Positions 1 through 46,535 of a stretch of DNA of 64,000 bases are shown one piece after another. Source of the DNA: Bacillota bacterium (GTDB lineage: Bacteria > Bacillota > SHA-98 > Ch115). The stretch is taken from NCBI GenBank assembly GCA_013178415.1, contig JABLXA010000004.1, positions 124,001 through 188,000 on the forward strand. Reading direction: 5' to 3'. The position numbers and the translations under genes are program-made. The notes below the pieces were generated by a model, which was given only the letters and a program-made list of their open reading frames with translations, made no database searches and was not told where the DNA came from. The stretch's first letter is position 1. Every line of letters begins with the position of its first letter.

Positions 1-149
1 CCTGATTTCTAGATCACGAAAATTGAGCATCTCAGATCGGTTTCATGCTGGGCAGGGAGTTCGGGGTAGTCCCCCATGCCGCCATGGCAGCATGGAAGTC
101 TATCCAAAAGTATGGGCTGGCGAAAATTCCATCACTTTCTGGGCAAACA

Positions 150-583
150 TGGCGAAATCCTCGCCAGCTCAAATCAGGGGTGGCGTGTTTTTAGGCAGGA
201 TCTGTGTGAAGATGGCGAGGATTTCGGCAGCCTCCTCTCAGAGGTGGCGAAATAGTCGTCAGGTCGGGGCGATTCTGGGAGATCTTGGGTAGATTTTACC
301 TACAGGTGGCTGAAATCTCGTCAGGTCTTGTCGAGAGGTGGCGGCAATGCCGCCAGTCTTCGTTCCCGGATGGCGAAATCTTCGCCACCTCATGTCCAAA
401 TTGGAAGATTCAAGGAGGTGATTATCCAGTATAATACAGTTTATGGTATATATTGGGCCAGGGTGACGATATTTCGATCAGGCTGAAGGCAAGACTGGCG
501 ATATTCTGGCCAGGATGAGGGCAGAGCTGGCGATGGTTTCGCCATTTGCCAGTCTGCGTTCAGGGGTGACGCCATATTCGTCA
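150..583. repeat. 32-bp-period array of 17-bp imperfect palindromes (family 1, first copy)
   Basis: About ten 17-bp units begin at 150, 181, 213, 245, 307, 339, 371, 464, 496, 528 and 567. Examples are TGGCGAAATCTTCGCCA (371), TGGCGGCAATGCCGCCA (339) and TGACGCCATATTCGTCA (567). Neighbours lie 31-32 bp apart or near multiples of that, so each repeat is a 17-bp palindrome plus a roughly 15-bp spacer that often begins GG. The arms stay complementary while changing (TGGCG/CGCCA, TGACG/CGTCA). The rest of 1-867 holds no convincing gene. A second array of the same family lies at 17756-18046. Function unknown. Confidence 0.85.
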
Positions 584-867
584 TCTATCTCGATGTTTTT
601 AAACTAGCTTCTGTGATAATCTTGTCGCACCAGGCGGCTAGCAGCGCGGCGCAAAGAAATATTTTACTAGTGAATTCATCTTCTCGGTCACAAAGAAGTT
701 ATGCGCCCAGAATCGCCTGGGACCCAGAATCGGCTGCGGCCTAGAATTGCCCCGGGCTCGGAATTGCCGTTGGCCCAGAATTGCCCTGGCATTGGACGCG
801 ATGCTATGGATTTGGTATAGTAAATACAGGTGATGGATGTCCATATAATGTGGCATGGCGCTGCACG

Positions 868-3786
868 ATGTGGAAATCCGGCAATAGTACGGGGGCGATT
901 TTGTTGGGAGATCATGAACACAGAGGCAAGGTTATCATAATCGATGGGAATTCTCTTCTTCATCGGGCCTTTTACGCTCTTCCCCCATTGACAACTTCCT
1001 CCGGAGAGCATACAAACGCAGTATTTGGCTTTACCAATATGCTCTTCCGGTTGCTGGACGAGGAAAGGCCGGATCTTCTGGCGGTTGCCTTTGATAGACC
1101 AGCACCCACATTCCGCCATGTCGCCTATGAGGATTATAAAGCCAATCGCAAGAAGATGCCTGACGAGCTGGCTTCCCAGGTGCCCCTCGCAAAGCAAGTA
1201 GTAGAGGCCCTCGGCGTCCCCATATTCGAAATCGATGGATACGAGGCTGACGATGTAATTGGGACCATCAGTAAGCTTGCCGAGGAGCAGGGCTATGATG
1301 TGATGATAGTAACAGGCGATCGCGATGCCTTTCAGCTCATTTCCCCCCATGTCAAAGTTATGATCACCAGGAAAGGCATAAAAGACATCGAGGTATTCGA
1401 TGAGGATCAGGTAAAGGAGAAATATGGCATCGCCCCATCCCAGGTGGTAGATATCAAATCACTGGCTGGGGATGCTTCTGACAATATTCCGGGAGTTCAT
1501 GGAATCGGCGAGAAGACAGCCCATGAGCTTATAGCGACATTCGGTTCTCTGGAGAATCTGCTTTCCAACCTGGATAAGGTCTCGAAGAAAAGGGTCAGGG
1601 AATTGCTTGAGCAGGGTAGTGATTCAGCGATTCTCTCCAAACAGCTGGCTACAATCGACCGCGAGGTCCCAATTAAGGTAGACTTATCTGCCTGCAAGAT
1701 TGGCACGCCGGACTCGACCCGGTTGGCGGAGCTTTTCAGACGATTGGAGTTCAAATCCTTGCTGCGGCGGATCGGCCCGACTCCGTTGCAGGAACAGGCC
1801 AAAGGCTCGGAGCATACTACTGCTGCAGCCGCCGGGAGTGCCCGGACCCAGGCTGAGGACATCTGGAGCCCTACTGAGGCCGCCCAGGGTCCGGCTGAGG
1901 TCGTTCAGGGCCCGGCTGAAGGTGCGCGGAGTTCGGCTTCCGCGGAAGATTTCCTTGAGCTTCCCTATGAGGCTGAATGTGTTGTAACCGGTGAGCAGCT
2001 CAAGAAGGTCATATGTGAGATCCTGTCTGCAGGAATATGCGCCTTCGAGGCCATCAGAGGGCGAGGGAAACCTGTCGAAGCTCCGTTCATCGGGATAGGC
2101 TTTGCCCTCCCAGATGGTCACACGTATTACGTACCTCTTGGCCATTACTATGAAGGCGCTCCCGGTCTTCCTGAGGGAGAGGCTCTCACGTTGTTGAAGC
2201 CTGTCCTTGAGAATCCTGAATGCAAGAAGATCGTTCATGATGGGAAGCCCGGCATCACCATGCTTCTCAGGCGCGGAGTCAAGGTGCGCGGTCTTCAGAT
2301 GGACGCCATGGTTGCGGCATATCTGCTAAATCCAGAGGCAGGGGAGATGAATCTCCAGGATCTATGCAGAAAATACTTGGGTTTTGAACTTCGGCCCCCA
2401 GATGCCCCATCTGGATCTTCGCAAAGCCGCCTTATCGACCTTGACCTGGGGATGTGCGGGGCGGACGAGATGGCAAAATCTGTTGGGCATCGGCTGGCAG
2501 CGCTCATGAAGCTATCCCATGAGTTGGAAAACCTGATTCATCACGATGGTATGGACACCCTTCTACGTGAGGTGGAAGTTCCCCTGGTGAGCGTATTGGC
2601 TGAGATGGAGGCTTCAGGGGTAAGCATCGACGAGAATGCGCTGAAGGATGTCTCATCTGAGTTGGGTCTGCGGATTTCGCAAATAGCCCAGGATATCTAT
2701 GACCTCGCGGGCGAGGAATTCAATATAAATTCCACGAAGCAGCTTGGCGCCATTCTATTTGATAAGCTCAAGTTGCCGCCGGTCCGTAAGACCAAGACAG
2801 GGTATTCTACCGACGCGGAGGTGCTGGAAGCGCTAGCTGAATATCATGTTATAGCTGCACGGATCCTGGAATATAGGGAACTCGTGAAGTTGAAGTCCAC
2901 TTATGCTGATGCCCTGTCTCACCTTGTGAATCCTGTAACAAAGAGGATTCATACAACGTTTCATCAGACTATTACTGCTACCGGGAGGCTGTCTAGCAGC
3001 GATCCGAACCTGCAGAACATCCCGGTTAGGAGTGAGGAAGGAAGGAGAATCCGTAGAGTTTTCGTTCCAGGGCGAGAGGGATGGAAGATCCTGAGCGCTG
3101 ATTATTCTCAGATCGAGTTGAGGATCCTGGCTCATTTCTCACAGGATGAGGAATTGATCCGCGCTTTCAATAATGACGAGGATATCCATACGGCCACTGC
3201 AGCAAGCGTATTCGGAGTGGACCCTGATTCAGTGACTTCCGCTATGCGTTCCAGGGCCAAGGCTGTCAATTTCGGAATCGTATACGGAATAACAGACTAT
3301 GGACTGGCCAGGGGGATCGGTCTTTCAAGGAAAGACGCGCGGGATTTCATCGACAGATACTTTGCCCATTATAAGGGCGTCAAGGAATATCTGGACAGGG
3401 CGATCGTTGATGCCAGGAGTCTAGGATATGTCACGACTTTGATGGGACGCAGGAGATATCTCCCCGATCTGAACAGCAGCCGTGCTCCGGTAAGAAGATT
3501 TGCGGAACGCACCGCGATGAATACCCCAATACAGGGAACTGCCGCTGATATCATCAAACTTGCGATGGTGAGGATAGCAAAGGAACTATCAAAGGGAAGA
3601 TTCAAGACCATGATGATCCTGCAAGTGCATGACGAACTGGTATTCGAGAGCCCGGATGAGGAAGTGCTGGAGATCGCGCGAATGGTGAAACGAATCATGG
3701 AGAATGTGGTGCCCCTTGCAGTGCCTCTCAAGGTGGATGTAAAGGCGGGTCCGAATTGGCTGGATACCGGCCCGGTCAACCTGTAA
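868..3786 (+). CDS. polA: DNA polymerase I
   Basis: About 972 residues, the usual length for full Pol I. It fills gaps and removes RNA primers in replication and repair. An N-terminal 5'-3' exonuclease/FEN domain (about residues 15-310, opening with IIIDGNSLLHRAFYALPPL) is followed by a low-complexity linker with GPAE repeats, a 3'-5' exonuclease-like domain and the polymerase domain. Polymerase motifs are A (DYSQIELRILAHF, about 745), B (RSRAKAVNFGIVYG, about 795) and C (VHDELVFE, about 920). The proofreading motif that is FDTET in E. coli reads FEAIR here, so proofreading is probably lost, as in Bacillus-type enzymes. The start is uncertain: ATG 868 and TTG 901/904 are in frame and none has a strong ribosome binding site; an upstream TTG at 781 lies in repeat-flanking DNA. 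Confidence 0.96.
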   Translation: MWKSGNSTGAILLGDHEHRGKVIIIDGNSLLHRAFYALPPLTTSSGEHTNAVFGFTNMLFRLLDEERPDLLAVAFDRPAPTFRHVAYEDYKANRKKMPDELASQVPLAKQVVEALGVPIFEIDGYEADDVIGTISKLAEEQGYDVMIVTGDRDAFQLISPHVKVMITRKGIKDIEVFDEDQVKEKYGIAPSQVVDIKSLAGDASDNIPGVHGIGEKTAHELIATFGSLENLLSNLDKVSKKRVRELLEQGSDSAILSKQLATIDREVPIKVDLSACKIGTPDSTRLAELFRRLEFKSLLRRIGPTPLQEQAKGSEHTTAAAAGSARTQAEDIWSPTEAAQGPAEVVQGPAEGARSSASAEDFLELPYEAECVVTGEQLKKVICEILSAGICAFEAIRGRGKPVEAPFIGIGFALPDGHTYYVPLGHYYEGAPGLPEGEALTLLKPVLENPECKKIVHDGKPGITMLLRRGVKVRGLQMDAMVAAYLLNPEAGEMNLQDLCRKYLGFELRPPDAPSGSSQSRLIDLDLGMCGADEMAKSVGHRLAALMKLSHELENLIHHDGMDTLLREVEVPLVSVLAEMEASGVSIDENALKDVSSELGLRISQIAQDIYDLAGEEFNINSTKQLGAILFDKLKLPPVRKTKTGYSTDAEVLEALAEYHVIAARILEYRELVKLKSTYADALSHLVNPVTKRIHTTFHQTITATGRLSSSDPNLQNIPVRSEEGRRIRRVFVPGREGWKILSADYSQIELRILAHFSQDEELIRAFNNDEDIHTATAASVFGVDPDSVTSAMRSRAKAVNFGIVYGITDYGLARGIGLSRKDARDFIDRYFAHYKGVKEYLDRAIVDARSLGYVTTLMGRRRYLPDLNSSRAPVRRFAERTAMNTPIQGTAADIIKLAMVRIAKELSKGRFKTMMILQVHDELVFESPDEEVLEIARMVKRIMENVVPLAVPLKVDVKAGPNWLDTGPVNL

Positions 3787-10004: not shown

Positions 10005-10134
10005 CTTCCACACTCCTGAGGTTATGCGAAGTGTCCGTAGTCTGCATCGTTCGCTGGTAATAGTGTAGGAGATTAGCATCGTCCGTCAGGGATGGTGTCC
10101 GTAATTAGAACTATCCATGCGGAATAGTTCGGTT
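9999..10134. repeat. 32-bp-period palindrome array (family 4)
   Basis: A recurring GTGTCCGTA-like block sits at 10031, 10063, 10095 and (degenerate) 10127, exactly 32 bp apart. Dyads between the blocks include ACACT/AGTGT (10010-10014 and 10030-10034) and GAACTAT/ATAGTTC (10108-10114 and 10124-10130). It overlaps the end of the PIN remnant and lies behind the ABC-F gene. Confidence 0.65.
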
Positions 10135-17283: not shown

Positions 17284-17316
17284 TTAGCCTCTACGTGTGT
17301 CCATGCGGCAGATCAT
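17284..17316 (-). pseudogene. vestigial start of a PIN toxin gene
   Basis: The antitoxin stop overlaps an ATG as TGATG, the usual antitoxin/toxin junction. The frame reads MICRMDTRRG then stops. The first seven residues fit the MIxYxDT opening of VapC-like toxins, but the rest of the gene is missing. Confidence 0.4.
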
Positions 17317-17585
17317 CACCGGTCCTCCGACACAAATGATGACAAGGTCTGCCGTCCCCTAAGATTATAGGGTTTGACTATTCCCTTAGGTTTACCCTCT
17401 TGCCATTTTGCCTGGCCGGATTGCAGAAGGTCTAGCGCCCTATCAGGGAGTCTCTCATGTTGGACAGATGTGAGCAATGCCACCGGTTTGCCGCGCTCCC
17501 TAATTATGAGGGCCTCTCCCCCTTTTACCCTATGTAGGTACTCGCTCAGATGAGTCTTAACCCTTCGTATTCTTGCCTGTTCCAT
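17316..17585 (-). CDS. orphan Phd/YefM-type antitoxin
   Basis: 89 residues. It has the Phd/YefM N-terminal DNA-binding fold: short strand, then TRVKTH-like helix (RIRRVKTHLSEYLHRV), KGGEALIIRERGKPVALL, with a C-terminal tail that would bind a toxin. The start at 17585 (three codons into the longest frame) follows GGGGTGAG. Such proteins repress their own operon and neutralise a partner toxin, usually PIN, Doc or RelE. Here only a ten-codon stub follows, so the antitoxin is orphaned. Confidence 0.8.
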   Translation of the reverse strand: MEQARIRRVKTHLSEYLHRVKGGEALIIRERGKPVALLTSVQHERLPDRALDLLQSGQAKWQEGKPKGIVKPYNLRGRQTLSSFVSEDR

Positions 17586-17755
17586 AGATCTCACCCCAAC
17601 AATTATATCGTAGTGTTAACGAGGTAATAGGTCAAGATTGTTGGTGTCATAGGGGCATATAGCTTCTTTGTGGCCCAAATGAGGAATCACATGGCAGCAT
17701 GAGATTGCCGCCGCAAGGTCAGACGACGAAAATGATGTAATCTTTGCGCCTCAAC

Positions 17756-18046
17756 TGACGAGTCTGTCTCCAGGTTTGCCTTTAATGTGGCGACGCCGCC
17801 GTCACCTGCCGGCAAAACCTGACGAGATTTATGCCACTTCTCAGCAAAATTGTCCTAAGATCTTCCAAAATGGATCCAGGTCCTTCCAAAATTTGCTCGC
17901 CCTGACGACCATGTCGCCAGTCTCGGAAAGAAACTGGCGAAATTCTCGTCAGATGCGCCCAGAACCTGACGAAAAATCTGCCACCATAGATCTAGGGTGA
18001 CCAGAAATCTGTCAGGTCTCCCGCCAAAGTGGCGAAATCTTCGTCA
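17756..18046. repeat. 32-bp-period array of 17-bp imperfect palindromes (family 1, second copy)
   Basis: 17-bp units start at 17756, 17788, 17820, 17851 (degenerate), 17903, 17935, 17967, 17998 and 18030. Examples are TGGCGAAATTCTCGTCA (17935) and TGGCGAAATCTTCGTCA (18030). Steps are 31-32 bp apart except around one missing unit. Sequence and period match the array at 150-583, about 17 kb away. No gene in this stretch. Confidence 0.85.
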
Positions 18047-18192
18047 GTTCCCATGTTGCACCTTAGGAAGCTAACCCAACTATTAGCATGTGTGGATGAT
18101 ACTTGGATTAACGGGTAGCAGATCTCAGCCTCCACAAGCTGAACATTTGCATATATCAAACAACGAATAGGGACTTTGGCGCCGCTTAGGGG

Positions 18193-18442
18193 AATAGTGT
18201 CAGTTATCGACATCGTCCAGCCAGAACAGTGACCATAGCTGACACTATCAGCCGGGGATAGTGTCAGTAGTTGCCACTATCCGTCTTGAACTGTAGCAGC
18301 AGACGCCCATATCCGCCAAAAACAGTGACAATATCTGCTACTGTCCTCAAAGGATAGTAGCAGAAAACGCTACTGTCCGCCGGAAACAGTAGCGACAGAT
18401 GATACTATCCTCGCCGGAATAACAGGGCCAGTTGGCACTATG
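18193..18442. repeat. exact 32-bp-period palindrome array (family 2)
   Basis: Eight units begin at 18193, 18225, 18257, 18289, 18321, 18353, 18385 and 18417, each exactly 32 bp after the last. A unit opens AACAGT or GATAGT and closes ACTATCC or ACTGTCC; the best has GATAGTAGC paired with GCTACTGTC around a 7-base loop. Short linkers resemble GCCGGA. The sequence is unrelated to the family 1 array that ends about 150 bp upstream, yet the period is identical. Confidence 0.88.
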
Positions 18443-18475
18443 TTTATGGGCGGGTCATCGCCCGCCCATCACCGG

Positions 18476-18925
18476 CTACTCTATATTGATCTGCGTGCCG
18501 CGCGGCCCGGCGCCTTTGACCTTCGGTAATGTCACCTCCAGGACTCCATCCTTGAAGGTGGCCTTGGCTCCTTCCTTCTGCACCGCCACCGGGAGCGGGA
18601 TCGTCCGCGTGAAGCTCCCATAGCTCCTTTCACGGCGATAATAATCCCGGTCCTTGATCTCTTCGTCACGCCGCGTCTCGCCACTGATGGTAAGGCCATC
18701 CTCAGTGAGCGTCAGGTTGATCTCATCCTTACTTACACCCGGGATTTCTGCCTTCACTACTATCGAATCCCCGCGGTCATATACGTCTACAGCGGGAGAC
18801 CATAAGCCTCCGGTAAACCAACCCTCTCCGCGCCGTCTGGGAAATCTTCGCGCCCAGAAATGCTCAAGGGCGTCCCGGAAATCTACAAGTTCTCTCCACG
18901 GATCCCATGGCACCAAATCAGGCAT
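18476..18925 (-). CDS. Hsp20/alpha-crystallin small heat-shock protein
   Basis: 149 residues, a usual length. The ATP-independent chaperone fold spans about residues 40-140: WSPAVDVYDRGDSIVVKAEIPGVSKDEI, LTISGETRR and the FKDGVLEVTLPK signature, ending with the I-x-I oligomerisation motif (INI). The N-terminal DPWRELVDFRDAL is typical of bacterial Hsp20. GGAGGG lies upstream of the ATG. No CIRCE element was seen upstream. Confidence 0.95.
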   Translation of the reverse strand: MPDLVPWDPWRELVDFRDALEHFWARRFPRRRGEGWFTGGLWSPAVDVYDRGDSIVVKAEIPGVSKDEINLTLTEDGLTISGETRRDEEIKDRDYYRRERSYGSFTRTIPLPVAVQKEGAKATFKDGVLEVTLPKVKGAGPRGTQINIE

Positions 18926-36521: not shown

Positions 36522-36576
36522 CAAAAGCCCCTACCGCTCTCCCTGAAATCTCATCATGGTAGTCATGGTAGGAGCT
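36522..36576 (-). terminator. riboswitch-controlled terminator before the antiporter
   Basis: On the minus strand AGCTCCTACC, the 3' strand of the aptamer, can pair with GGTAGGGGCT (one G-T pair), followed by TTTTGGTTT. Aptamer folding and this terminator are mutually exclusive, so fluoride should allow read-through. Confidence 0.75.
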
Positions 36577-36620
36577 ATCAGCCTCGATATCAGGCATTAG
36601 GCGAGCTCCATCGCCGGTCG
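36566..36620 (-). ncRNA. fluoride riboswitch (crcB motif) upstream of the antiporter
   Basis: The minus strand reads GGCGATGGAGCTCGCC, a small hairpin GCCT...AGGC, then CTGATAGCTCCTACC. This matches the known fluoride aptamer layout (GGCGATGAGGCCCGCC, hairpin, CTGATGGCCTCTAC) with stem positions changed in a complementary way. It begins five bases after the stop codon of the DUF6062-like gene. Confidence 0.9.
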
Positions 36621-37304
36621 TTAAAGTTTTATTCCTCGGAGCCCAACGAGTTTTTGTATCGCACGCGCTACCGAGTCTTCAGTGCCATTCCATGGCGCAT
36701 CCGCAAAACGATAATCATGCTTCTTGATAAACCACTCTAGTTCTCCAGATAACCGTTCCAGGTTGGCACGAAGGAGGTCGAACGCGAGAGTCACTATTTC
36801 TTTGCTACGGTCCGACCGTGGTCCATCCTTAACGCTCTCTGCAAGGGCGAAGGTATGAGGGATACAGAATCCTTTTGAACGCGCGAACGCGTCTCTAAAC
36901 TCCTTGTCATCGCGGTACATCCGGATGATGAGTTCGCAGTGCTGTCGAATAAAACCAGCAATATGCTCGCAGGCAAGACATTGAAAGCATTGACCGACTC
37001 GTTGCGCTTTATCTGGCAGAGCAGCATTCATGGCGCCTAAATCCGAGGAGATGATGCCCGAAAGGATGCTTTCAAGCGTTAACGCCAGTCCCAGCTTATC
37101 TCGCCGGTTCAATAGCTTATATAGGTGATCGTTACAAAACCCATTCTGGACTACCTTCTTCCGGTATTGAGAATCCATCACTAGCTCCTCAAGGTAACTT
37201 GTGAGGAAAGAATCCTCTATCTGTTGCGTGAGAACACAGAGCGGGCATTCTGTATTCTCCTGAAAGGCGTCCCAGATAGGTATAGTCTCGATTGCCTGCT
37301 TCAT
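36621..37304 (-). CDS. DUF6062-like protein under fluoride riboswitch control
   Basis: 227 residues; AAAGGAGGG precedes the ATG. The opening ETIPIWDAFQENTECPLCVL and the second cysteine cluster CFQCLACEHI match what I recall as DUF6062, a family common in anaerobic Firmicutes with no assigned function. CPLC, CFQC/CLAC and a C-terminal FCIPH cysteine/histidine could bind a metal or iron-sulfur centre. No membrane segments. The gene is flanked by two fluoride riboswitches: one in its own leader and one directly behind it. A role in protecting a metal-dependent process from fluoride is inferred. Confidence 0.8.
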   Translation of the reverse strand: MKQAIETIPIWDAFQENTECPLCVLTQQIEDSFLTSYLEELVMDSQYRKKVVQNGFCNDHLYKLLNRRDKLGLALTLESILSGIISSDLGAMNAALPDKAQRVGQCFQCLACEHIAGFIRQHCELIIRMYRDDKEFRDAFARSKGFCIPHTFALAESVKDGPRSDRSKEIVTLAFDLLRANLERLSGELEWFIKKHDYRFADAPWNGTEDSVARAIQKLVGLRGIKL

Positions 37305-46314: not shown

Positions 46315-46334
46315 TTGATGAATAACGGCATCAT

Positions 46335-46535
46335 ATCGGGGTGGGCGACCAGGGAATAGGCAGCAGGAGCAACCTGTAAGCCAGCGGTCCCGCCACTGTA
46401 TCCGGGGAGCCTTTCTGCCGTCACTTCTTTTGACTATGAGGGAAGACGGGGAAGGTGGATCCTCCAATGATGATCCAGGCGATGATCCGGGAGCCAGGAG
46501 ACCTGCCCATCTCGTTTGCCAGATAACCTTCGGTG
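46335..46535 (+). ncRNA. cobalamin riboswitch
   Basis: The leader of the btu operon has the class-defining blocks AATAGGCAGC, AACCTGTAAGCCAGCGGTCC-like core with CCCGCCACTGT, GGAAGACGGGGAAGG, and the B12 box GCCAGGAGACCTGCC at about 46492-46506. The terminator at 46594-46632 follows. Adenosyl- or methylcobalamin should switch the downstream uptake genes off. Confidence 0.95.

Follow-up and report, generated by a model that had tools for sequence, protein, structure and literature searches.

REP, BIME and REPIN sequences and their RAYT (TnpA-REP) genes, as defined previously (PMC2817692, PMC3116915), are short imperfect extragenic palindromes, dispersed and partly ordered in regular clusters, with a DNA-processing gene beside the founder copy and several independent gene–repeat pairs per genome. 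All these features recur in the palindromes described here. However, the gene in our case encodes a winged helix-turn-helix (wHTH) domain joined to a homing-type nuclease instead of a Y1 HUH transposase, no RAYT was found, and the units follow one another head to tail at an exact 32-bp pitch with little covariation of their arms. TIGR-Tas systems, defined by effectors with a Nop domain (PMC12045711), are also similar in having tandem arrays of 5–15 units beside a nuclease-type gene, but our arrays have no spacers, the core columns of every unit are constrained, and the Nop domain is missing. Homing endonucleases of phages belonging to the EDxHD/Vsr-like type, such as I-Bth0305I (for the nuclease class, see PMC3943268), are modular, with a nuclease and a DNA-binding region, and have long targets. 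The nuclease domain found here matches PHROG families of phage homing and HNH endonucleases, while the genes differ in being chromosomal, multi-copy and free-standing, with a winged-HTH N-terminus and palindrome arrays upstream. Finally, MITEs are short, carry no genes and have inverted ends, and they lie at sites unrelated to one another, which also holds for some copies in two related genomes (G002 and G003), although the interior of these copies is a palindrome array of variable unit number, related to the arrays at nuclease genes. No nuclease–array pairing of this kind was found in the open-access subset of the literature, and the association between a nuclease and repeat arrays of its own looks undescribed.

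The window, that is, the whole 64,000-nucleotide stretch of DNA analysed here, contains the following features relevant to the array, which belongs to a family designated F2.

18192..18443, no strand: F2 array, eight 27-bp imperfect palindromes starting at 18192+32n, with 5-bp linkers
18353..18377, no strand: the clearest single unit, GATAGTAGC-AGAAAAC-GCTACTGTC
18446..18469, no strand: GC-rich inverted repeat ATGGGCGGG-TCATCG-CCCGCCCAT, just past the hsp20 stop and outside the array; by its sequence, probably the hsp20 terminator
18476..18925, minus strand: hsp20 gene, its 3' end facing the F2 array
17740..18050 (about), no strand: array of another family, F1 ("family 1"), with CTGACGA/TCGCCAG palindromes at a 32-bp pitch
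17316..17594, minus strand: Phd/YefM-like antitoxin gene beyond the F1 array, its match just under the Pfam cut-off
10026..10116, no strand: second F2 array, three units
72..672 (limits approximate), no strand: F1-type element in which two blocks of palindromes enclose a conserved A+T-rich centre (locus L133, C4:122772-125845)

Eight palindromic units at 32-bp steps had been proposed in the initial annotation, and this arrangement was borne out, since the column score of the array was reached by none of 5000 shuffles. Self-identity of the array was 0.51 at a lag of 32 and 0.55 at a lag of 64, compared with about 0.2–0.3 at most other lags, where the maximum was 0.36. A periodic-palindrome scan of the whole window had its maximum, a score of 32, at the array, and five shuffled windows peaked at 28–30. 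The phase is regular, as claimed; the last unit fits best 2 bp out of phase, and the first and the last units are the most decayed. The arms quoted previously, GATAGTAGC and GCTACTGTC, are present at 18353–18377, and no other copy of this unit was found in the genome with three mismatches allowed. A GCCGG-like linker was described as well; linkers such as CGCCGGA do occur, but linkers vary. The separate family 1 array beside the eight units is real, and the 3' end of hsp20 does point towards the latter. Tandem Repeats Finder, run on the window, missed the array because its units are only about 50% identical, and no Rfam match to the array was obtained. Elsewhere in the window, cobalamin and fluoride riboswitches were detected over the Rfam cut-offs at 46326-46524 and 36562-36624, respectively.

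A search of the whole host genome (G000, 3.57 Mb) with the window array, and then with its better relatives, revealed that F2 is a dispersed family of about 14 arrays and more than 80 units. According to a position weight matrix with chaining, the arrays consist of 2 to 11 units with a step of 32 bp, rarely 31 or 33, and the consensus unit is GGATAGTGCTAACCATTAGCACTATCC with the linker CCGGC. Units were collected with the matrix, extended by period at a low cut-off, with all eight window units forced in, and sequence selection in this set is limited, but not nil. The window array is one of the dispersed copies, without a nuclease gene of its own. Such copies share no common gene function or position, their neighbours being hsp20 (at its 3' end), hsdR, a GH38 mannosidase gene, SLH genes and glycosyltransferase genes.

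Some of these neighbours are themselves repeated. Besides the hsp20 gene of the window, at 18476-18925 next to the F2 array, a paralogue at 2593-3042 of locus L163 (contig C26) lies about 2 kb from another one; hsp20 loci of other genomes were too distant to inform on a link between hsp20 and F2. Two paralogues of the type I restriction protein HsdR share 94.5% identity (L163, 5413-8562; L169, 2240-5389), and each has F2 units within about 2 kb. Homologous ATPase_2 genes of the host (L166, 2294-4126) and G003 (L242, 3886-5754) are both followed by an F2 array, at distances of about 0.9 kb and 0.1 kb, respectively.

On contigs C3 and C43, two paralogous genes with 86% identical DNA are preceded by F2 arrays at distances of about 220 and 270 bp, and no further similarity of the two loci was found beyond the genes and arrays. 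The encoded protein had no match above threshold in Pfam, NCBIfam or PDB. An alignment of seven homologues revealed an N-terminal winged HTH, with matches to MarR, IclR, TrmB and HTH_36, all weak, and a C-terminal domain marked by E102, E137-Y-D139 and E150-x-N-G-x-Q-H-Y, the invariant residues being E102, E137, D139, E150, N152, Q155 and H156. We tentatively read these E/D/N/Q/H residues as a putative EDxHD motif and the protein as a probable nuclease of the EDxHD/Vsr type. All seven aligned proteins match the phage homing/HNH endonuclease families phrog_559 and phrog_9084 over residues ~133–208 (best 9e-11), and some of the phage relatives are annotated as homing endonucleases. Collections of plasmid, phage and viral sequences contained distant relatives of the nuclease domain only, and PADLOC reported nothing beyond weak HTH matches. 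The linked protein looks like an undescribed combination of a winged HTH with a homing-endonuclease-like nuclease domain.

The nature of this gene bears on two known types of systems. REP/BIME elements spread by a RAYT (Y1 HUH) transposase would likewise be expected to appear as extragenic palindromes that are dispersed and arranged in ordered arrays, the cognate gene lying next to a founder copy (PMC2817692, PMC3116915). Nevertheless, the Y1_Tnp domain (PF01797) was found in none of the four genomes G000–G003, whereas 5 of 14 control genomes were positive, and the linked gene encodes a wHTH nuclease of another fold class; a RAYT-based system was therefore rejected, and we regard its probability as negligible. 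An array of guide RNAs that serves a nuclease effector, as in CRISPR or TIGR systems, is just as improbable. The tandem units do adjoin a nuclease gene, with a period near that of the 36-nt tigRNA, but variable spacers are absent, the core columns being constrained across units to purine or pyrimidine, and no match to the Nop domain, which TIGR effectors have (PMC12045711), was seen in the linked protein family.

Homologues of the linked protein were collected by protein sequence alone and their surroundings were examined afterwards, which yielded 61 homologues from 28 of 398 genomes. Tandem arrays were scored in 1-kb regions, the significance of autocorrelation being determined for each region by 100 local shuffles. 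For all homologues, significant arrays were present in 25 of 59 upstream regions, 14 of 58 downstream regions and 14 of 201 control segments. In the same class, with the C3/C43 discovery pair left out, 13 of 15 upstream regions carried an array; the proportion was 14 of 201 in controls (p=7e-12) and, on the downstream side, 2 of 14 (p=1.5e-4), and in the other genomes of the class the upstream array was present in 9 of 11 cases. Outside the class there was no upstream excess (10/42 upstream versus 12/42 downstream). The commonest period was 32 (13 of 25 arrays); dyad symmetry of the column profile was significant in 12 of the 25 homologue arrays, and some of them are plain tandem repeats in which a dyad is unclear.

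The arrays at different homologues differ in sequence. Within the host genome, the homologue on contig C2 is preceded by an F1-type array, with half-sites enriched about ninefold and matches to F1 copies dispersed in the genome at E-values as low as 6e-26; the best match, L159, had entered as a presumed control, yet is itself a weak F1 match. The homologue on contig C1 has upstream a 34-bp array of a third family, F3, copies of which occur elsewhere in the genome. Thus all three families, F1, F2 and F3, are represented by a home copy immediately in front of paralogous nuclease genes, and four gene–array pairs (C3, C43, C2 and C1) are present in one genome. Both homologues in G003 have upstream arrays of their own sequence, with 33- and 35-bp periods, and an F2-cognate gene was not found in that genome. 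Further unrelated sequences at a 32-bp pitch were found upstream of homologues in G006 (TGGTCCCCAGGGGACCA), G012 (GTGGTCGAAAAACAACCAC) and G186 (ACCGACA...TGTCGGT). Three distant homologues (L308 in G351, L283 in G092 and L295 in G160) are preceded by near-perfect tandem repeats of 37, 16/32 and 30 bp, respectively, which are unlike the degenerate palindrome arrays in kind.

An operator for autoregulation would be expected where the arrays are found, upstream of the start codon of the nuclease gene. One could suppose, accordingly, that they are operators only, through which the wHTH protein or another regulator represses its own and nearby genes, the dispersed arrays representing its regulon and having no role in mobility. 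The HTH matches to regulator families agree with such a role, as does the placement on one face per three helical turns, which suits cooperative binding. We nevertheless consider this explanation rather unlikely, since the dispersed arrays lack a common gene function or position, the flanks differ between copies in sister genomes (see below), and the conserved nuclease domain would be left unexplained.

Variation among the units is strongly patterned. In the set of 83 F2 units of the host genome, 83–100% of units agree in class, purine or pyrimidine, at most of the 27 core columns; transitions in the core columns are near saturation (pairwise 0.3–0.5) and transversions are few, columns 3, 7, 20, 21 and 25 being nearly invariant. 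The linker columns of these units, as oriented, look close to random. G003, with 34 units, shows the same pattern, most core columns being free of transversions; the G003 linkers, oriented array by array, give a hint of partial constraint. As neutral controls in the host genome we used dispersed copies of F1, together with the fourfold sites of paralogues that included hsdR and hsp20; the transition-to-transversion ratio was about 1.3–2.7 for the F1 copies and 3.0 at the fourfold sites of the closest paralogue pair. At control ratios of mostly about 1.3–3, transitions could not reach saturation while transversions stayed almost absent, so that neutral divergence under transition-biased mutation was rejected and the purine/pyrimidine pattern of F2 is not simply a mutation bias.

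The arms of the palindromes do not covary within arrays, with 796 Watson–Crick cells versus 788 expected (p=0.24), nor in the window array alone (p=0.51). A weak excess appears across arrays, its score being reached by 8 of 500 shuffles, and relatedness can produce such an excess. Pairing of the right arm with the left arm of the next unit gave no signal over all arrays (690 versus 708) and was marginal in the window array alone (p 0.03–0.06). Mispairs of the A.C type are nearly as common on the same strand as those of the G.T type (170 versus 226), and the slight strand asymmetry of G.T versus A.C tracks column composition. Because the arms barely covary, a symmetric protein-binding site fits the data better than an RNA hairpin. 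Consistent with this, the inner half-sites of the window array are changed alike, AGTAGC...GCTACT replacing AGTGCTA...TAGCACT, which may reflect a symmetric protein site with drifting specificity.

Of the two interpretations in the initial annotation, a protein footprint on DNA is therefore the better one, while a hairpin small-RNA array is poorly supported. Transcription of the arrays into small or structured RNAs appears very unlikely to us: both strands of the array fold better than shuffled sequences (z about -6.3 each), as any palindrome array does, and the excess of covariation across arrays is set against its absence within them, the frequent A.C mispairs and the lack of an Rfam match.

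Among the relatives of the host, F2 arrays occur at five loci of G003, which belongs to a different family within the order, and a single small copy is present in its congener G002; no F2 array was found in G001, which belongs to the same family as the host. Beyond the order, a search of 398 genomes of the phylum with strict filters returned none except one weak single match (G367). Thus the F2 family does occur in close relatives, to which the initial annotation had looked for conservation of the array, but it occupies different loci there. At both ends, the copy in G002 and that on contig C6 of G003 are 97–98% identical; they have unrelated flanks and contain 2–3 and 8–9 internal units, respectively. 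The ends are inverted repeats of about 20 bp, TTGCCACGCATAAGG...TTATGCGTGCTAA. In G002, the copy is bordered on either side by GACTTGTT, a possible 8-bp duplication; other copies show no clear one. Since such ends adjoin unrelated flanks in the two sister genomes, the arrays are mobile or else subject to gain and loss, and this comparison shows F2 arrays that have evidently moved between loci within short inverted-repeat elements.

The inverted ends and the possible duplication point to an ordinary transposase rather than homing and count against spreading by the nuclease. In the extreme case, the arrays would be passive passengers of MITE-like elements moved by an ordinary transposase acting on terminal inverted repeats, and the gene link would result from autoregulation or shared hot spots. 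This appears unlikely, given that such ends were not seen around the inspected arrays of the host genome, the window array included, that arrays of unrelated sequence but comparable pitch are found again and again before members of this one gene family, and that a purine/pyrimidine constraint on every unit is unexpected for passenger DNA.

The explanation we favour, with somewhat better than even confidence, is that the array offers a cognate wHTH nuclease a phased platform of binding sites and is dispersed as non-autonomous elements; binding, cutting and spreading by the protein are inferred. Besides the inverted ends, this explanation has against it the lack of an upstream excess outside the class, the homologue arrays without a clear dyad, and the fact that G003 has F2 arrays although an F2-cognate gene was not found in it. 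The window array would be a solo, gene-less F2 copy, the home copies being those upstream of wHTH-nuclease genes. Each 27-bp unit would be the site for one dimer of the nuclease, and the 32-bp pitch, about three helical turns, would align eight dimers along a single face of the double helix. Upstream of the nuclease gene, the array may serve for autoregulation, as a donor, or both, and cutting followed by repair, or transposition of the surrounding inverted-repeat element, could bring arrays to other intergenic sites.

More tentatively, and with the balance somewhat against it, one could propose a previously undescribed class of elements, in which a wHTH homing-type nuclease is accompanied upstream by fast-diverging but geometrically similar palindromes, most often at a 32-bp pitch, the array and the DNA-binding domain co-evolve, the nuclease delivers copies of the arrays, and occasionally of the gene, to further loci, and several orthogonal pairs coexist in a genome. 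If true, a symbiosis of a chromosomal enzyme with dispersed palindromes in the style of REP/RAYT would have evolved a second time with an unrelated nuclease. The arrays, diverging in sequence while keeping a similar pitch, would offer a natural series for winged-HTH recognition by purine/pyrimidine pattern, and a kind of intergenic repeat that Tandem Repeats Finder and Rfam did not report here would be explained.

The F1 family, dispersed in the host genome with the same 32-bp pitch as F2, is found next to F2 once more on contig C17 near 112 kb. In F1 elements (e.g., L131, L133, L134, L139 and window ~72-672), the arrays flank a conserved A+T-rich centre, CCAATATATACCATAA...GGATAATTATATCC...TTCCAATTTGG, which lies outside the palindromes and is possibly a promoter or crossover region. 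Near-identical long F1-type elements with different left flanks are present at C8:181351 and C4:68389 of the host genome (L135 and L136), which suggests a recent duplication or transposition.
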